Shown here: positions 1,988 to 42,386 of the stretch, piece by piece
Layout of the letters: the number at the start of each line of letters is the position of its first letter
Position numbering within the stretch: the stretch's first letter is position 1
Source: Shewanella baltica
GTDB lineage: Bacteria > Pseudomonadota > Gammaproteobacteria > Enterobacterales > Shewanellaceae
Assembly (NCBI RefSeq): GCF_900456975.1
Contig: NZ_UGYM01000002.1
Coordinates: 3,286,001 to 3,350,000, forward strand
DNA: 64,000 bases
Direction: 5' to 3'
Notes under the pieces: model-generated
Database searches by the model: none
What the model saw: only the letters and a program-made list of their open reading frames with translations
Told to the model about the DNA's origin: nothing
Translations under genes and position numbers: made by a program

Positions 1988-3556
1988 TTAATATTTACGT
2001 TGCACGCTCTGCTGCCAAAACTGCTGGGACAGATGATGCGTCTTGGTCGATAACCGCGACACTTGATCGCCCCGCGCCGCCGCATCGAGCGTCTGCTCTA
2101 AACTCTGTTGAGCCAAATCGCTGATCACATGGATGGCACGGCTAATTTCAGCGGCCACAGAAGTCTGCTGGGTCATCGCCGCGGCATTATCATCACTTAA
2201 GGAGTTAATTCTTGTTATAGATGAAAGCAACTCGCCAAAAGCGACACTGGCTTCCTGCGCTAAGCCTACTGAACGTTTAACCTGCTCTTGTCCCGCCACC
2301 ATAGTCGAAGTCGCCCTTTGGGTACTTTCCCTAAAGCGGCTAACGATTAACTCGATTTGCGAGGTGGATTGGCTAGTACGACTCGATAATTGTCTGACCT
2401 CATCGGCCACCACTGCAAAACCGCGACCACTATCCCCTGCCCGCGCCGCTTCGATTGCCGCATTTAAAGCTAACAAGTTGGTTTGGTCAGCGATGGCACG
2501 TATCACTTCAAGCACTTGATGAATAGCACGGCTATCTTCTTCAATCGTTTGAACTACATCGGAAAAGTGGCTCACTTGCACACTCAGCTGATGTATCGCC
2601 TCTATCACTGTTTCTAAGCGTGAATGACCGCGTTGCGCCGCCTCATGGTTCGACACCATTTCAGAGGCCGTGCGATGAATGTTGCCCGTCACTTCGGCAA
2701 AACTGGCGCTCATCTGCTCCATCGCAGTTGCAGCCTGCGTCGTTTGCTCGCTCTGACTATCGGCATGTTCCCAAGTGTTGGTAATGGTTTGTTTAAGGCT
2801 GACACTCTGAGATTGGATTTCACTGGCCGAATCCGCCATACGGCCAACAACGCCACCGATTTCGGTGATCAAAAAGCGCAAGGCAAGATCCAATTTTCCA
2901 ATCTCATCTTGGCGGCCGGTATACACGCCCGTCGCCACAGGATCGTCAATAATGTTTGTTGCCATAGACACGAGCTTTTGCAGCGGCTGCATCAGGTAAT
3001 ACCATGCTAGGCACGCTACCGTCATCCCCGCAATCGCGGCAACAATGGGAGAATAACTGGCAATCATTGCCGTAGTCATAATCGACATCAGCATGGCCAG
3101 CAGTATCTTGCCACTGAAACCTAACCTGTCTTTGCGCAATACCTTAGGTTGCTTACCCTGATTAATATCGCTGTAAATACTCTCGGCGGCTTTGATCTGC
3201 TCTGGAGTGGCTTGGCGGCGAACAGATTGATATTCGTGAATTTTACCGTCTTCATACACAGGGGCAACATAGGCATTTACCCAGTAATAACCGCCATTTT
3301 TAGTGCGATTTTTAACGATACCCATCCAAGGTTTACCCAGCTTAATTCGCTCCCAAAGGATCTTAAACGCAGCCGCTGGCATATCTTGATGACGCACTAT
3401 GTTATGGGGATTCCCTTGTAACTCAGCAGCGCTAAACTCGCTGATCTGCGAAAAAGTCTGATTCACATATTTAATGTTTCCCTTCAAATCCGTCGTGGAT
3501 AGTAGAATCGCATTATCTGACAGGTGTGTTTCACCATTCTTAGAATTTTTATGCAT
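1988..3556 (-). CDS. Methyl-accepting chemotaxis protein with N-terminal PAS domain (Aer-like)
   Basis: A 522-residue membrane chemoreceptor. Residues about 10-115 form an Aer-type PAS domain ([10 protein letters not shown], the HQDMP segment, [19 protein letters not shown]). Two hydrophobic segments at about 150-192 form a membrane hairpin with no real periplasmic loop. A HAMP-like linker and a long signalling coiled coil (about 230-510) follow, with the highly conserved hairpin tip [20 protein letters not shown]. Sensing is therefore likely cytoplasmic or redox/energy related, as in Aer, with signalling through CheA/CheW. FAD binding is inferred from family resemblance only. The gene is monocistronic. 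Confidence 0.93.
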
Positions 3557-28722: not shown

Positions 28723-29600
28723 GGTCTGTTGATCTTTCGAGAGTGATTTTTAGACAGCATGGCAAGACGTTATAATTTGCTTCGCCAAAAGTAACCATAA
28801 CCTCAAGCCATGCCAAGACTTATGCTAACCGATGCACGCTGGGAAAAGCTATTTCATTTAATGAAAAGCACAGGCCGTGTTTATGACAAACCTGAACATA
28901 GACAAACATTCGAAGGTATTCTTTACCGGCTTAGAACAGGTATCCCTTGGCGAGATTTACCTAAAGAGTTCGGTCATTGGAGCACGGTCTTTAGACGGTT
29001 TCATTTATGGTCTAAGAAAGGCGTTCTAGCACATTTATTCAAGGCCTTAGCCAACCTTGCTGATATAGAATGGGTCTTTATTGATGGCTCGATAGTGCGG
29101 GCTCACCAGCACAGTGCAGGTGCAGCGACGCTAAATAATGAGAGTATTGGTAAAAGTCGAGGCGGTAATTCAACCAAAATTCACTTAGCCGTCGACAGCG
29201 GAGGATTACCGATTTATTTCGAATTATCAGAAGGCCAAAAACACGATATTACACACGCCCCCAGCTTAATTGAACACCTGAAGCAGGTTGATACCGTCAT
29301 TGCAGATAAAGGTTATGACAGCGATGCATTTCGTGAACTTATCGCAAATAAAGGCGGGAAATCTGTTATTCCAAGGCGCCGCTATAAGAATACACCTCAA
29401 GAAAGAGTCGATTGGTGCTTATATCGGTATCGACATTTAGTGGAGAATGCTTTTGGAAGAATTAAACATTATCGAGCAATATCAACAAGGTATGACAAGC
29501 TAGCAAGAAATTACGCCAGTATGGTGTCACTGGCGTTTATGTTAATGTGGCTGCCGATGTATTGCTGAACACCATTTGTACAGCAAAGATCAACAGACCC
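28722..29600 (+). mobile_element. IS5-family insertion sequence (879 bp)
   Basis: Complete element with 16-bp perfect terminal inverted repeats (GGGTCTGTTGATCTTT and its complement) and one intact transposase gene. It is flanked by TA at 28720-28721 and 29601-29602, consistent with a TA target duplication. It is inserted within the stop codon of the cytochrome c-prime gene. Intact ends and reading frame suggest a recent arrival. Base use resembles the host, so there is no strong sign of distant transfer. Confidence 0.93.
28810..29568 (+). CDS. IS5-family DDE transposase
   Basis: A 252-residue single-frame transposase. It has the IS5-type N-terminal domain (RLRTGIPWRDLPKEFGHWSTVFRRF), then DDE catalytic motifs: Asp in FIDGSIVRAH, Asp in VIADKGYDSD, and Glu in RHLVENAFGRIKHYR (the YREK-like segment). 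It is full length and appears active. Subgroup (IS427 or IS1031 type) is a guess. Confidence 0.95.
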   Translation: MPRLMLTDARWEKLFHLMKSTGRVYDKPEHRQTFEGILYRLRTGIPWRDLPKEFGHWSTVFRRFHLWSKKGVLAHLFKALANLADIEWVFIDGSIVRAHQHSAGAATLNNESIGKSRGGNSTKIHLAVDSGGLPIYFELSEGQKHDITHAPSLIEHLKQVDTVIADKGYDSDAFRELIANKGGKSVIPRRRYKNTPQERVDWCLYRYRHLVENAFGRIKHYRAISTRYDKLARNYASMVSLAFMLMWLPMYC

Positions 29601-32610: not shown

Positions 32611-32657
32611 GAAAGTTTTGATTGACAGCTAAGCCCTAGCCCTTTAGTTTTAAGCCC

Positions 32658-32711
32658 ATGAAAATGATAACAGCAGCTTTTTTTACTTTCTTTTTTACAC
32701 CCCCACTCTAG
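32658..32711 (+). CDS. pheL: pheA leader peptide
   Basis: A 17-residue leader peptide, MKMITAAFFTFFFTPPL, with five Phe codons in a stretch of six residues. Its stop codon lies exactly at the start of the antiterminator arm. Same design as E. coli PheL, where Phe-tRNA shortage stalls the ribosome and permits pheA transcription. Recognised by composition, position and the following attenuator. Confidence 0.93.
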   Translation: MKMITAAFFTFFFTPPL

Positions 32712-32776
32712 GAGGCGGATTTACTGTGTAAAAACGAAAGTAAAAATCCAAAGCCTCCCAACTGGGAGGCTTTTTT
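32711..32776 (+). promoter_or_regulatory. pheA attenuator (antiterminator and terminator)
   Basis: The terminator is GCCTCCC / GGGAGGC with an AACT loop and a T run (32751-32776). An alternative antiterminator pairs GGAGGC (32711-32716) with GCCTCC (32753-32758), extended by GGATTTACT (32717-32725) with AGTAAAAATCC (32739-32749). The two structures exclude each other. Confidence 0.9.
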
Positions 32777-32820
32777 GTCTTAAACGATTGATAAAATACA
32801 TGGCGGCAATTGAGGTCAGA

Positions 32821-34815
32821 ATGCATACACCACAGCCTTTAAATCAAACCCGAGAGCAGATCACCAATCTGGATAATGAACTGCTGGCATTACTCGCTGA
32901 GCGCCGTCGCTTAAGTCTAGAAGTGGCCCGTAGTAAAGAAGTGGATGTCAGACCCATCAGAGATACTCAAAGGGAAAAAGAACTGCTCGCTAGACTAGTG
33001 AAAGAAGGCAGAGAAAAGGGATTAGATGCCCACTATGTTATCTCCCTTTACCAAAGCATCATTGAAGATTCTGTATTGAATCAACAAGCTTACCTTCACG
33101 GCCGTGCCAACCCAGAAACACAAAAACAGCAGTATTGTATCGCCTACCTCGGTGCACGAGGCTCTTACTCTTATCTCGCAGCGACCCGCTATTGCCAACG
33201 CCGCCAAGTTGAAATGCTAGACTTAGGTTGCCAAAGTTTCGATGAAATAGTGCAAGCCGTTGAGTCTGGGCATGCTGATTATGGTTTCCTACCGATTGAG
33301 AACACTTCTTCAGGTTCAATCAATGAAGTCTACGATGTACTGCAGCACACCAGTTTATCGATCGTTGGTGAAACGACGATTGAAGTCAGCCATTGCCTTC
33401 TAGGAAAAGCTGGCAGTAAATTAGCTGATATCAAAACTGTCTATGCCCACCCTCAGCCTATTAGCCAATGCAGCAGATATTTAACTCAACACAAAGACTT
33501 GAGACTGGAATACTGCTCAAGCAGCGCAGAAGCAATGGAAAAGGTAAACCAAAGTCCAGATAACAGTGCTGCAGCGATTGGCAGCGCCGAAGGTGGTGCA
33601 CTCTATCAGCTAGAGTCGATAGAAGCAGGTTTAGCTAATCAGAAGATCAACCAAAGTCGCTTTATCGTTGTTGCTCGCAAAGCCGTTGCCGTGCCAGAGC
33701 AGTTACCCGCTAAGACCACATTGATTATGGCGACGGGCCAAAAAGCCGGTGCATTAGTAGAAGCCCTGTTGGTTCTGAAAGCGCATCAGTTAAACATGAG
33801 CAAATTAGAGTCACGCCCGATTCCAGGAACACCTTGGGAAGAGATGTTCTATTTGGATATCGACGCGAATATCTCCAGTGAATCTATGCAGGCCGGTTTA
33901 AAGCAACTCGAGCGGATCACCCGTTTTATCAAAGTATTAGGCTGTTATCCTTGCGAAACAGTTAAGCCCACGCAACTGAGCAACAGCCAGTTACTGATTG
34001 AACCTAGCACCTCTAAGGATCAAGTCATCAGTGAGAATGGAGCAAATACCAGCCCTGTTCGATATAGCAAAGCCTATAAAGAGCAAGCTAGTGAGATCAA
34101 CTGCGGTGCAATGACAATCGGTGCAGGGCATGTCGGTGCCATAGCGCAAATCACGCTGAATAATGACATTTCACACTTAGCGTTATCGGCTTTCGAGCAG
34201 CAAGTGAAACAGCTTAAAGAAGTGGGATTCCAAGCGGTTCTGCTCAATAGCGTTAATCAAGTGGCTATGGCGGAAGTGACCCTAGCTAAACTGCGCCAAA
34301 TCCTGCATCAATATGGTCTGGTGTGCATTATTGCCATAGAGCAAGAAGCCGATATGCCATTAGCCGTTCAGCACGCCGATATGCTGTTCTTGGCGGGTAA
34401 GCAGATGTTTAATCAAACCTTACTCACTCAAGCGGGCACCTTACCAGTACCTTTAATACTTGAACGTAACGATATGGCAAGTTTTGAAGAATTACTCACG
34501 GCAACAGAAATTATCTTAAGCCAAGGCAATCAGCAACTTATTCTGTGTGACTCTGGCATTAGAACCTTAAATAACGCCAATCTACCCTCACTCGATTTGG
34601 CAAGCCTGATCCAGATTAAAGCCACGAGTCATTTGCCCATTTTGATCAACCCTAGCTATGCCGTTTCGGATGATGCCCTGCTGGTTCAAACCCAAGGTAT
34701 TAAGCAGCTTAAAGTGGATGGATTGATACTCAATTGCCCACTTGACAGCAATAATGACTCTGAGTCGCTTAACTTAATTAGCGCTGTAGTGCGGGAATTA
34801 TATCGGGCGGTCTAA
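32821..34815 (+). CDS. pheA: Chorismate mutase / prephenate dehydratase with extra C-terminal DAHP-synthase-like domain
   Basis: Converts chorismate to prephenate and phenylpyruvate. The 664-residue product has an AroQ chorismate mutase (about 5-90), prephenate dehydratase (105-285, YLGARGSYSYLAA, PIENTSSGSINEVYD) and an ACT regulatory domain (298-380, KLESRPIPGTPWEE). E. coli PheA stops near 386. Here about 240 residues follow, resembling type I-beta DAHP synthase/KDO8P synthase barrels (LCDSGIRTLNNANLPSLDL, THLPILINPSYA-like). The metal-binding positions look lost (NPSYA instead of DPSHA, NCPLDS instead of EVHPDP), so the domain is probably not catalytic and may be structural or regulatory. 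GAGG five bases before the ATG decides this start. Confidence 0.93.
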   Translation: MHTPQPLNQTREQITNLDNELLALLAERRRLSLEVARSKEVDVRPIRDTQREKELLARLVKEGREKGLDAHYVISLYQSIIEDSVLNQQAYLHGRANPETQKQQYCIAYLGARGSYSYLAATRYCQRRQVEMLDLGCQSFDEIVQAVESGHADYGFLPIENTSSGSINEVYDVLQHTSLSIVGETTIEVSHCLLGKAGSKLADIKTVYAHPQPISQCSRYLTQHKDLRLEYCSSSAEAMEKVNQSPDNSAAAIGSAEGGALYQLESIEAGLANQKINQSRFIVVARKAVAVPEQLPAKTTLIMATGQKAGALVEALLVLKAHQLNMSKLESRPIPGTPWEEMFYLDIDANISSESMQAGLKQLERITRFIKVLGCYPCETVKPTQLSNSQLLIEPSTSKDQVISENGANTSPVRYSKAYKEQASEINCGAMTIGAGHVGAIAQITLNNDISHLALSAFEQQVKQLKEVGFQAVLLNSVNQVAMAEVTLAKLRQILHQYGLVCIIAIEQEADMPLAVQHADMLFLAGKQMFNQTLLTQAGTLPVPLILERNDMASFEELLTATEIILSQGNQQLILCDSGIRTLNNANLPSLDLASLIQIKATSHLPILINPSYAVSDDALLVQTQGIKQLKVDGLILNCPLDSNNDSESLNLISAVVRELYRAV

Positions 34816-40017: not shown

Positions 40018-41169
40018 TTAATTGGTTTTCATATCATTTACCGATTGCAGCATAATACGACTTTCACGCTGAAATTGGGGAGCAAAATCCCCAAACCATT
40101 TAGCGACGGTTTGGAACTGCTTAATAAACTCGTCCCTGTCACCGCGTTTTAGCAGCTCCAACGCTTCACGGTAGTTATCTAAGTAATCGCCGATTGCATG
40201 TTGGCTATCTTGCTGGGCAAAAATAATATCGGCGTAAAGCTCTGGGCTTTGAGCGAATAATCGCCCTACCATAGCCAATTCTAAGCGGTAAATCGGCGAG
40301 CTAAATTGCAGTAAAGTATCAATATCTGCCTCTTCCTTGCACAGATTCAAACCATACACAAAGGTCGAAAAGTGACGCATTGCCTGCACTAACTGCATCG
40401 CACTGTCGTGACGTTCAGGCTCTGCTTCGACAATCCGCGCGCCCCATATTGCGATCTGCTCGAGTAACCATTGGTATTTATCAGGCTCACGACCGTGGCA
40501 CACCACCACGACTTGTTTCGCCAGACTGCCCACATCGGGACCAAACATAGGATGGAAACCGACGACAGGACCAGAATGCGCCTCAAGCATGGCTTTAACC
40601 GGCTCTGTCTTGATGGAGGTCAAATCCGCCAGAATACAGTCGGCTGGTAATTGGGTCAGCTTTTCGCGAATAAGCTCGCAAGTAATCGCAATCGGCACAG
40701 TCACTAACACCATGCCCGCATCGGCAAATAGGCTATCTGCTTGCTGCCAATCATCTTTATCGAGCAGATTCACTTGGTAGCCAGATAAGGTCAGCATTTG
40801 TGAAAACAGTCCACCGAGTTGCCCTTTACCGCCGACAATCACCACTGAGCCGAGATCTTTTTTAACTTGCTTAAAGCCTACATCTTTTTCATTGAGATAA
40901 GACTCGCGCATCAAGCGGCGTAAAATATCCTCAATTAATTGCGGTGCAATCCCCATGCTTTTCGCTTCTTCGCGGCGTTTAGCGAGCATGGCGGCTTCAC
41001 GCTGCGGTGCATAAATCGGTAAACCGGCGCCGTGTTTCACTGTGCCCACTTGCGCCACGAGATCTAAGCGCTTACGCAGTAAATGCAATAATTGCTGATC
41101 GACACCATCAATCAGGCCGCGAAGATGTTCTAATTCGGCCGTTGTTTTTTCATTCATACCTGAGTCCAT
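40018..41169 (-). CDS. tyrA: Bifunctional chorismate mutase / prephenate dehydrogenase
   Basis: Makes 4-hydroxyphenylpyruvate, the tyrosine precursor; 383 residues. The AroQ chorismate mutase lies at about 8-95 ([26 protein letters not shown]). The prephenate dehydrogenase domain has the NAD motif [18 protein letters not shown] and the [12 protein letters not shown] block. An internal ATG at 41157 is also possible; the ribosome-binding sites do not clearly decide. The start lies 15 bases after the aroF stop, so the two form an aroF-tyrA operon. Confidence 0.96.
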
Positions 41170-41184
41170 TAAGCTGTCGCCAAT

Positions 41185-42276
41185 TTAAGCGTTAGCAACT
41201 TTAAGCATATCGAAGCGTGCCGGGAGTATTGAAGATAACTTCACCGCGCCGTCACGTAAAATGGTTTCTGTTTTTTCCCAGTTAATACAGGAATCTGTCA
41301 CAGATACACCGTAAGCTAGCTCGCTTAATGGCTTATCGCAGCTTTGATTGCCTTCATTTAAGTGGCTTTCAAGCATAACGCCGATGATCGATTTATTGCC
41401 GTTATAAATCTGCTCGAACACATCTTCACACACAGGCTTTTGGCGGCTGTAGTCTTTGGATGAATTGCCATGGCTGCAATCGATGATCAAACGTGCATTG
41501 AGTTTGGCTTTGTGAAGCTGTGCCTCACATTCTGCCACGCTTGCGGCATCGTAGTTTGGTGATGCACCGCCACGTAAAATCACATGACCATCGGGATTGC
41601 CCGCAGTTTGTAATAAGGCGACTTGGCCCTGTTGGTTAATGCCCATAAATCTGTGACTGCTGGCCGCTGACTTTAGCGCATTAATCGCCACATCGAGCTT
41701 ACCATCGGTGCCATTTTTAAAGCCAACTGGCATAGAAAGACCCGATGCCATTTCCCTATGGGTTTGCGATTCAGTGGTGCGGGCACCGATGGCCGACCAA
41801 GTCACTAGCTCAGAAATGTACTGAGGGCTGATAGGATCAAGCGCTTCAGTGGCGACTGGTAGCCCTAATTCGGCCAACCAAATCATCAGCTCACGGGCCA
41901 TTTTCAGACCTTTTTCGACATCGAAGGATTCATCCATATCGGGATCGTTGATCATGCCTTTCCAACCGACCGTAGTACGCGGCTTTTCAAAGTACACTCG
42001 CATTAAGATGTAAAACTCATCACTGAGTTCATCGTGCAAGGTTTTAAGCCTTAAAGCGTATTCCTTAGCGGCGGCGATATCATGGATGGAGCAAGGCCCG
42101 GTGACGATCAATACTCGATTGTCGCGCTTATGGACAATATCAGCCACGGTTTTGCGGGCATTGAGGATATAACGATAAGCATGCTCAGAGAGTGGCAAGG
42201 CATTTTTAAGCTCTTGCGGTGTGATTAAGACTTTTTCTGAACTGATGTGTACGTTGTTAATCGTATCTTGTTGCAT
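41185..42276 (-). CDS. aroF: 3-deoxy-7-phosphoheptulonate (DAHP) synthase, Tyr-type
   Basis: First step of aromatic amino-acid synthesis: joins phosphoenolpyruvate and erythrose 4-phosphate. The 363-residue class I-alpha enzyme shows VTGPCSIHD, KPRTTVGWKG, IGARTTESQTHRE and the metal-binding IIDCSHGNSSKD. AGGTGG five bases before the ATG at 42276 favours it over a GTG nine bases upstream. Its position before tyrA corresponds to the Tyr-regulated isozyme of E. coli. A palindrome upstream may be an operator. Confidence 0.96.
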   Translation of the reverse strand: MQQDTINNVHISSEKVLITPQELKNALPLSEHAYRYILNARKTVADIVHKRDNRVLIVTGPCSIHDIAAAKEYALRLKTLHDELSDEFYILMRVYFEKPRTTVGWKGMINDPDMDESFDVEKGLKMARELMIWLAELGLPVATEALDPISPQYISELVTWSAIGARTTESQTHREMASGLSMPVGFKNGTDGKLDVAINALKSAASSHRFMGINQQGQVALLQTAGNPDGHVILRGGASPNYDAASVAECEAQLHKAKLNARLIIDCSHGNSSKDYSRQKPVCEDVFEQIYNGNKSIIGVMLESHLNEGNQSCDKPLSELAYGVSVTDSCINWEKTETILRDGAVKLSSILPARFDMLKVANA

Positions 42277-42386
42277 GCTTACCACCTAAGACTTAGTGTT
42301 TAACCCAGTTGTCGAAGCAGGACTTCAAGTCAGCTTGGGCATTCATTTCGGAAGAAAAATAGCGTAAATCTATCGTAATGTACTTT

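Follow-up and report, generated by a model that had tools for sequence, protein, structure and literature searches.

In a 64,000-nucleotide stretch of the Shewanella baltica genome (contig NZ_UGYM01000002.1, positions 3,286,001 to 3,350,000 of assembly GCF_900456975.1; hereafter the window, in whose own numbering coordinates are given), the gene pheA occupies 32821..34815 on the forward strand, with a frame that is open from the ATG at 32821 through the stop at 34815. Its 664-residue product joins a chorismate mutase (CM), a prephenate dehydratase (PDT) and an ACT domain to the barrel of a type I-beta 3-deoxy-D-arabino-heptulosonate 7-phosphate synthase (DAHPS) that is apparently catalytically dead, an architecture assigned from the reading frame, Pfam, TIGR01361 and an AlphaFold2 (AF2) model. 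We show that this barrel is maintained by purifying selection throughout Shewanella, and relate it to fused proteins of other bacteria in which the catalytic site is complete.

The CM domain (residues 11-89; 32851..33087, +; CM_2 PF01817, E 1.8e-19) carries R11, R28, K39, D48, E52, S84 and Q88, which are invariant in a 60-row alignment and which we take to be its catalytic residues. The PDT domain follows (residues 107-287; 33139..33681, +; PF00800, E 3e-58), and then an ACT regulatory domain at approximately residues 297-377 (33709..33951, +). The latter is absent from the Pfam listing for PheA and was placed by the secondary structure of the model and a fold match to 2qmx, one of several L-Phe-inhibited (L-Phe-bound) PDT structures that the PDT/ACT region of the model resembles; the GALV and ESRP of the PheA sequence are presumably the ACT-region motifs of those names. 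The P-protein model NF007910 scores 532 bits over residues 2-384, below its curated cut-off of 577, which was passed by none of 369 genomes in a sample of the class and by one of 14 controls.

Beyond the ACT domain, residues 386-411 (33976..34053, +) constitute a linker with a pLDDT below 50 at 394-409, and residues 412-664 (34054..34812, +) fold into a (beta/alpha)8 barrel. A sequence-only reading of the gene had placed an extra, DAHPS-like domain after about residue 385; the domain and its order are borne out, while the folded part begins only at about 412, behind the linker. DAHP_synth_1 of Pfam matches residues 486-619 (E 2.9e-14; 53.1 bits against a cut-off of 25.5), and a search of PDB sequences with the tail finds the DAHP synthases of Pyrococcus furiosus and Thermotoga maritima (E from approximately 5e-23 to 4e-22). 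TIGR01361 yields 94.8 bits over residues 416-620, far below its curated cut-off of 267.75, a value that a fused relative with intact catalytic residues (P0166 of Aliikangiella coralliicola) exceeds at 394 bits. The AF2 model of full-length PheA shows a complete barrel, with ten-residue means of pLDDT between 71 and 97, mostly above 90. Structure prediction and profile search, which the earlier reading had proposed as checks, agree with the PDB sequence search: the tail of PheA is a (beta/alpha)8 barrel homologous to the type I-beta enzymes of T. maritima and P. furiosus.

The catalytic site of this barrel has been almost entirely lost. We aligned 295 proteins, all of them CM/PDT fusions by listing or BLAST except P0176, and scored nine positions defined on an intact relative, namely the metal ligands Cys, His, Glu and Asp, the K and R of KPR, the K of LKRG, the R of ERG and the R of GIR, whose roles we assume from work on the T. 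maritima and Escherichia coli enzymes. The window PheA keeps one of the nine, the arginine of GIR. All four metal ligands (Cys of GPCS, His of DPSH, Glu of E(V/F)HP and Asp of ALSD) are replaced, a loss that goes beyond the two motifs, DPSHA and EVHPDP, noted from the sequence earlier; the KPR loop is missing, Ser stands in place of the ERG arginine, and the LKRG lysine, presumably the phosphoenolpyruvate lysine, is Glu at residue 548 (GAA, 34462..34464, +), as in 74 of 75 Shewanella sequences, while 187 of 187 intact relatives have Lys. Across 76 Shewanella sequences (the window, 74 loci and one further stretch), none of the nine positions is kept in 26, one in 43 and two in 7. The R of GIR accounts for most of what remains (45/76); both KPR positions are gaps in all 76, and no metal ligand is retained in 64 and a single one in 12. 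Residue content indicates that the Shewanella barrel is apparently catalytically dead, and the window PheA is best regarded as a decayed descendant of a CM-PDT-DAHPS fusion, not a functional member. The database name 'Multifunctional chorismate mutase P/prephenate dehydratase/DAHP synthetase' (P0109) is misleading because the DAHP synthase site is gone, and should be corrected.

The barrel is nonetheless genus-wide in Shewanella and under purifying selection. The PDT frame, measured from stop to stop, spans at least 622 residues in 128 of 129 Shewanella genomes, which answers for this genus the earlier suggestion to survey the distribution of the extension, and at 74 loci the frames measure 589-667 residues from match start to stop. 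In the single exception (G449, locus L134, 6.4 Mb), pheA is split within PDT into frames of 270 and 370 residues, through a real break or an assembly error. The ratio of nonsynonymous to synonymous substitution rates (omega) of the barrel is 0.04-0.21 across 14 disjoint Shewanella pairs; over the 30 of 2,775 pairs of 75 sequences that lie inside the chosen range of synonymous divergence, its median is 0.087 against 0.014 for CM-PDT, and it is at most 0.21 in all 30. If the tail were neutral, an equal-rate estimate predicts stops along the 14 paths, approximately 16 within the linker and 168 within the barrel, and none was seen. The available part of a 2005 paper on TyrA (PMC1173090) describes, for S. 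oneidensis, an aroQ-pheA to which an aroA-I-beta 'pseudogene' is fused. The missing catalytic residues would suit such a remnant, but we reject this interpretation, to which we assign almost no probability, because of the open frames and the low omega; the barrel is also confidently predicted to be complete, and neither the frame disruption nor the relaxed selection of a pseudogene was found. Separately, one Shewanella genome (G425) carries a second, stand-alone PDT of 281 residues (L138:785-1630), approximately 23% identical to the PheA part and near a frame at 2640-3500 that looks by eye like a transposase.

Fusions with intact, decaying and dead DAHPS sites coexist among the relatives of Shewanella. 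In a survey of 394 genomes of the order with TIGR01361, several long frames exceed the cut-off, reaching 401 bits. Among frames of at least 650 residues outside Shewanella, 22 were listed and 17 fetched (a shorter frame, G264:C46 with 526 residues, was left out), and 17 of 17 are CM-PDT-DAHPS fusions. Six of these (L105-L110) keep all nine catalytic positions, from Aliikangiella coralliicola (G303, family code f7), a Permianibacter sp. (G059, f14), a Kangiellaceae bacterium (G340, f7) and genomes G393 (f7), G078 (f15) and G014 (f14); the remaining eleven keep one to five. Genomes G075 and G093 are those of Aliagarivorans taiwanensis and Alginatibacterium sediminis, respectively. Fifteen further stretches added dead fusions in families f10, f12, f14, f20, f25 and f1, and the Ferrimonas group displays graded decay, with six (L079), two (L083) and none (L081) of the nine positions kept, and one in L133 of genus code g2, which groups with them. 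A PDT survey of the order found a match in 139 of 148 genomes, with a frame of at least 631 residues in 32 of the 139, from eight family codes; the sequence was read for 18 of these 32, TIGR01361 also matches a frame of the same length in G034, G055, G109, G124, G133 and G089, and the fused status of G005, G051, G071, G105, G120, G146, G057 and G077 is presumed from frame length.

Complete sites are also found far from this order. When the intact L108 barrel was searched against proteins, the best 120 of at least 7,998 scored hits included Melioribacteraceae, Ignavibacteriales, Gemmatimonadaceae and Iodidimonas, and 181 of 190 long hits from this and a further search, a sample in which near relatives of the queries are over-represented, keep nine of nine positions when aligned (P0176, which lacks PDT, among them). 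Transfer between phyla is likely for some members. No fusion from elsewhere in the class was found among the matches listed for 369 genomes, of which four belong to this order; the listed matches from outside it score approximately 184-226 bits in frames of at most 520 residues.

Several observations accompany this survey. Within genus code g107, one genome (G393) has an intact site and two (G384 and G331) a dead one. P0204 retains eight of the nine positions, with the metal Asp replaced by Gly, groups with the dead and unfused proteins and is possibly a first step of decay. Three loci of one GTDB family (L122, L123 and L124, genus g2) encode a free-standing type I-beta DAHPS with its own N-terminal domain, and a g2 genome with such an enzyme (G030) also carries the dead fused copy L133. 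We also considered whether retention of the catalytic site is tied to fewer other DAHP synthases and rejected this: other PF00793 members occur in all 27 genomes searched (25 with a fetched fused PheA, plus G374 and G391), with no clear difference by eye between intact and dead genomes, in counts that include KdsA and are not purely of DAHP synthases.

Phylogenetic analyses of the CM-PDT part and of the barrel suggest one fusion followed by repeated death and repeated loss. A careful tree of 72 CM-PDT rows was built without the long branches L150, L151, L154 and L144, without L156 (cut by a contig end and not truly unfused) and without the near copies L114 and L129; P0204 was counted as intact in the trees, and in one alignment L152 and L153 were left out as too distant and 110 N-terminal residues of L129 were trimmed. 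On this tree the states dead, intact and unfused require 13 changes. Approximately unbiased (AU) tests on the 72 rows reject the grouping of all 15 unfused rows (p 0.003), of all 38 dead rows (p 5e-76) and of the 34 dead rows outside f7 and f14 (p 0.016), the last being a subset picked after the tree had been seen. The trees were then rooted on eight two-domain proteins from other orders of the class, with the long-branch rows put back and only L156, L114 and L129 left out. In the careful rooted tree of 84 rows the ingroup forms a single clade (100/100). Intact or mixed lineages branch off first, with low support for the deepest inner split (83/27). A core of dead and unfused proteins is nested within nodes supported at 100/98, 98/89 and 95/81, and the sister group of every one of these nodes includes intact fused proteins. 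Within this core sits an enterobacterial row, L143, whose gene is 78% identical over its full length to E. coli pheA. Long branches (L150, L151 and several dead barrels) make details of the trees unsure.

In a quick barrel tree, which raised long-branch warnings, 16 free-standing I-beta enzymes (18 tried; L087 and L095 were dropped by a pattern filter) form one clade (100) apart from all fused barrels, which disfavours a fresh fusion of a free-standing enzyme in Shewanella. With their identical domain order, the Shewanella barrel and the three-enzyme fusions are taken on this phylogenetic evidence to have a common origin. Because of the CM-PDT and barrel trees, one fusion, repeated catalytic death and repeated barrel loss is the simplest reading. 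The sequence-only reading had pictured a dead copy being fused on for cross-talk, which finds no support in that form; the dead barrel is most simply explained by decay of a fused copy with a complete site, of the kind still extant elsewhere.

Conservation across the barrel, with loops assigned to its faces from the strands and helices of the model, has not been lost evenly. In 187 intact relatives the catalytic-face loops are the best-conserved part, with 3.82 bits; the 75 Shewanella sequences have 2.31 bits there and the 30 other dead copies 1.87, while opposite-face loops go from 3.49 bits to 3.36 and 3.00, so that the loss differs between faces by 1.48 bits in Shewanella and by 1.54 in 29 other dead copies. 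GN.Q (569, 570 and 572) and P606 are kept in at least 96% by weight of the other dead copies. The kept opposite face would fit a contact surface, an interaction that conservation alone leaves unproven.

Some residues of the catalytic face are near-fixed in Shewanella, namely M529 (75/75), N531 (72/75), E548 (74/75), R549 (74/75), N550 (69/75), D592 (74/75) and N610 (72/75). This would suit a repurposed pocket, in which the former active site binds another small ligand (an aromatic amino acid, a sugar phosphate or an intermediate of the shikimate pathway) and regulates CM/PDT, as would the recurrence of Glu 548 in 15 and Asn 610 in 12 of 29 other dead copies. However, the catalytic face overall has lost the most conservation, Lys to Glu is a one-step codon change, and a structural salt bridge would explain the same pattern; we consider such a pocket improbable. 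The other dead copies with Glu at 548 include Agarivorans and f25 rows, whether by convergence or shared ancestry.

A 17-residue leader peptide with five Phe (32658..32711, +), read from the sequence, and a Phe_leader attenuator RNA (RF01859; 32663..32779, +; cmscan 85.1 bits, gathering score 55) precede pheA, and the region 32640-32790 has an RNA fold z-score of -3.7. Approximately 5 kb downstream, on the opposite strand, lies an aroF-tyrA pair (40018-42285, -), separated from pheA by genes that by eye resemble an antiporter and a hybrid-cluster protein; approximately 3 kb upstream is a 252-residue frame (28810-29568, +) that by eye resembles a transposase. Cross-talk through hetero-oligomerization with the real DAHP synthases of the cell, as the sequence-only reading had proposed, could draw on the proximity of aroF-tyrA and on the fact that DAHP synthase barrels oligomerize in known enzymes. 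It is made less likely, and in our judgement very unlikely, because each of the three DAHP synthases in the genome (AroF at 41185-42285, -, and the AroG and AroH types) is an I-alpha enzyme of the AroF/G/H type. Apart from these, PF00793 matches only KdsA and the PheA barrel itself, and no free I-beta partner was found in the genome.

We propose, with somewhat more confidence than doubt, that the barrel is a pseudoenzyme domain inherited from an ancestral CM-PDT/ACT-DAHPS I-beta protein and retained because CM-PDT came to require it. A single ACT domain that binds Phe, placed in this three-enzyme ancestor between PDT and the barrel, might have curbed both the first and the last committed step at once. 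The fused activity would have been dispensable wherever a lineage had other DAHP synthases, and it was lost several times; the CM-PDT of Shewanella would have come to rely on the barrel for oligomer assembly, for stability and/or for relay of the Phe signal from ACT. We infer that the residue-intact forms are active and that the barrel has a structural or allosteric role; allostery within PheA is favoured but unproven.

A number of points weigh against this proposal. The model has a pTM of only 0.57, which leaves the arrangement of the domains unfixed, and P-proteins of the E. coli type work without a barrel. The difference in loss between the barrel faces, reached by none of 20,000 permutations, comes from a test that treats neighbouring columns as independent, though they are not; opposite-face loops also stabilize barrels, and fold stability by itself might account for their conservation. 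In the rooted tree, moreover, a single long-branch unfused row (L150 or L145) is present in each of two of the three sister groups. Furthermore, the barrel evolves approximately six times faster than CM-PDT by omega, and it is eroded in S. marina (589 residues), S. corallii (617) and SHEW3503E (615). These last two points, together with the nesting of two-domain P-proteins in the tree, which suggests that the barrel can be lost, also speak for the main rival, in which the dead barrel is a functionless passenger selected only to fold because PheA would suffer from a misfolded one. On this view a stop codon placed cleanly in the linker ought to be neutral, yet none of the approximately 16 expected on the sampled paths was seen, the barrel persists in all but one of the Shewanella genomes, and Glu 548 and Asn 610, conserved across the genus, occur in none of the 187 intact relatives; we consider a passenger unlikely, though less so than the other alternatives, and retain dependence of CM-PDT on the barrel as the preferred explanation.

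Compared with known systems, the CM-PDT-ACT part aligns end to end with the E. coli two-domain P-protein (AroQp-PheA, NF007910), and a Phe leader upstream is also present in E. coli pheA records; the NF007910 model ends at 386, whereas Shewanella PheA continues to 664. The residue-intact fusions of Aliikangiella, Permianibacter, Melioribacteraceae and others share its domain order, similar length and the fused-barrel side of the tree, and differ in keeping nine of nine catalytic positions rather than zero to two. The type I-beta DAHPS of T. maritima (1vr6/1rzm) likewise has an N-terminal domain, which we take to be regulatory, followed by the barrel, but it is a metalloenzyme without CM or PDT and its domain orientation differs (rmsd 12). 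The DAH7PS-CM of Prevotella and Porphyromonas and the CM-DAH7PS of Bacillus and Listeria, as described in the available part of PMC12202928, are also shikimate enzyme fusions with interdependent domains, although with two domains, no PDT and an active DAHPS; in the same part, separation of the domains of fused DAH7PS-CM strongly cuts catalytic efficiency, with the CM kcat largely unaffected in one.

The same Shewanella fusion, likewise read as a decayed I-beta DAHPS, takes up one sentence on one species in the available part of PMC1173090, whose 'pseudogene' label is corrected here: the domain occurs throughout the genus, is under selection and has been traced to fused relatives in which the site is complete. 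In the top-ranked open-licence literature we recognized no description of a residue-intact three-domain fusion or of a function for the Shewanella barrel. As far as that literature shows, what is new is that the domain is under selection, that fused relatives with intact residues branch at the base, that decay took place repeatedly and that the two-domain P-protein is nested.

Intact, half-decayed, dead and missing versions of one fusion coexist in related bacteria, even within a single genus code (g107), which makes testable the general question of what leads a protein to retain an entire enzyme domain that no longer catalyses its reaction. We regard it as evenly balanced whether the E. coli two-domain P-protein arose by reduction from a three-enzyme protein in which one ACT switch governed the entry and exit steps of Phe synthesis. 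In that case, DAHPS catalysis would have died repeatedly, the barrel, no longer catalytic, would have been kept for a control function in eight sampled family codes (f1, f7, f9, f10, f12, f14, f20 and f25), and Shewanella PheA would be a living intermediate. If the rooting holds, the origin of the E. coli P-protein would be rewritten.
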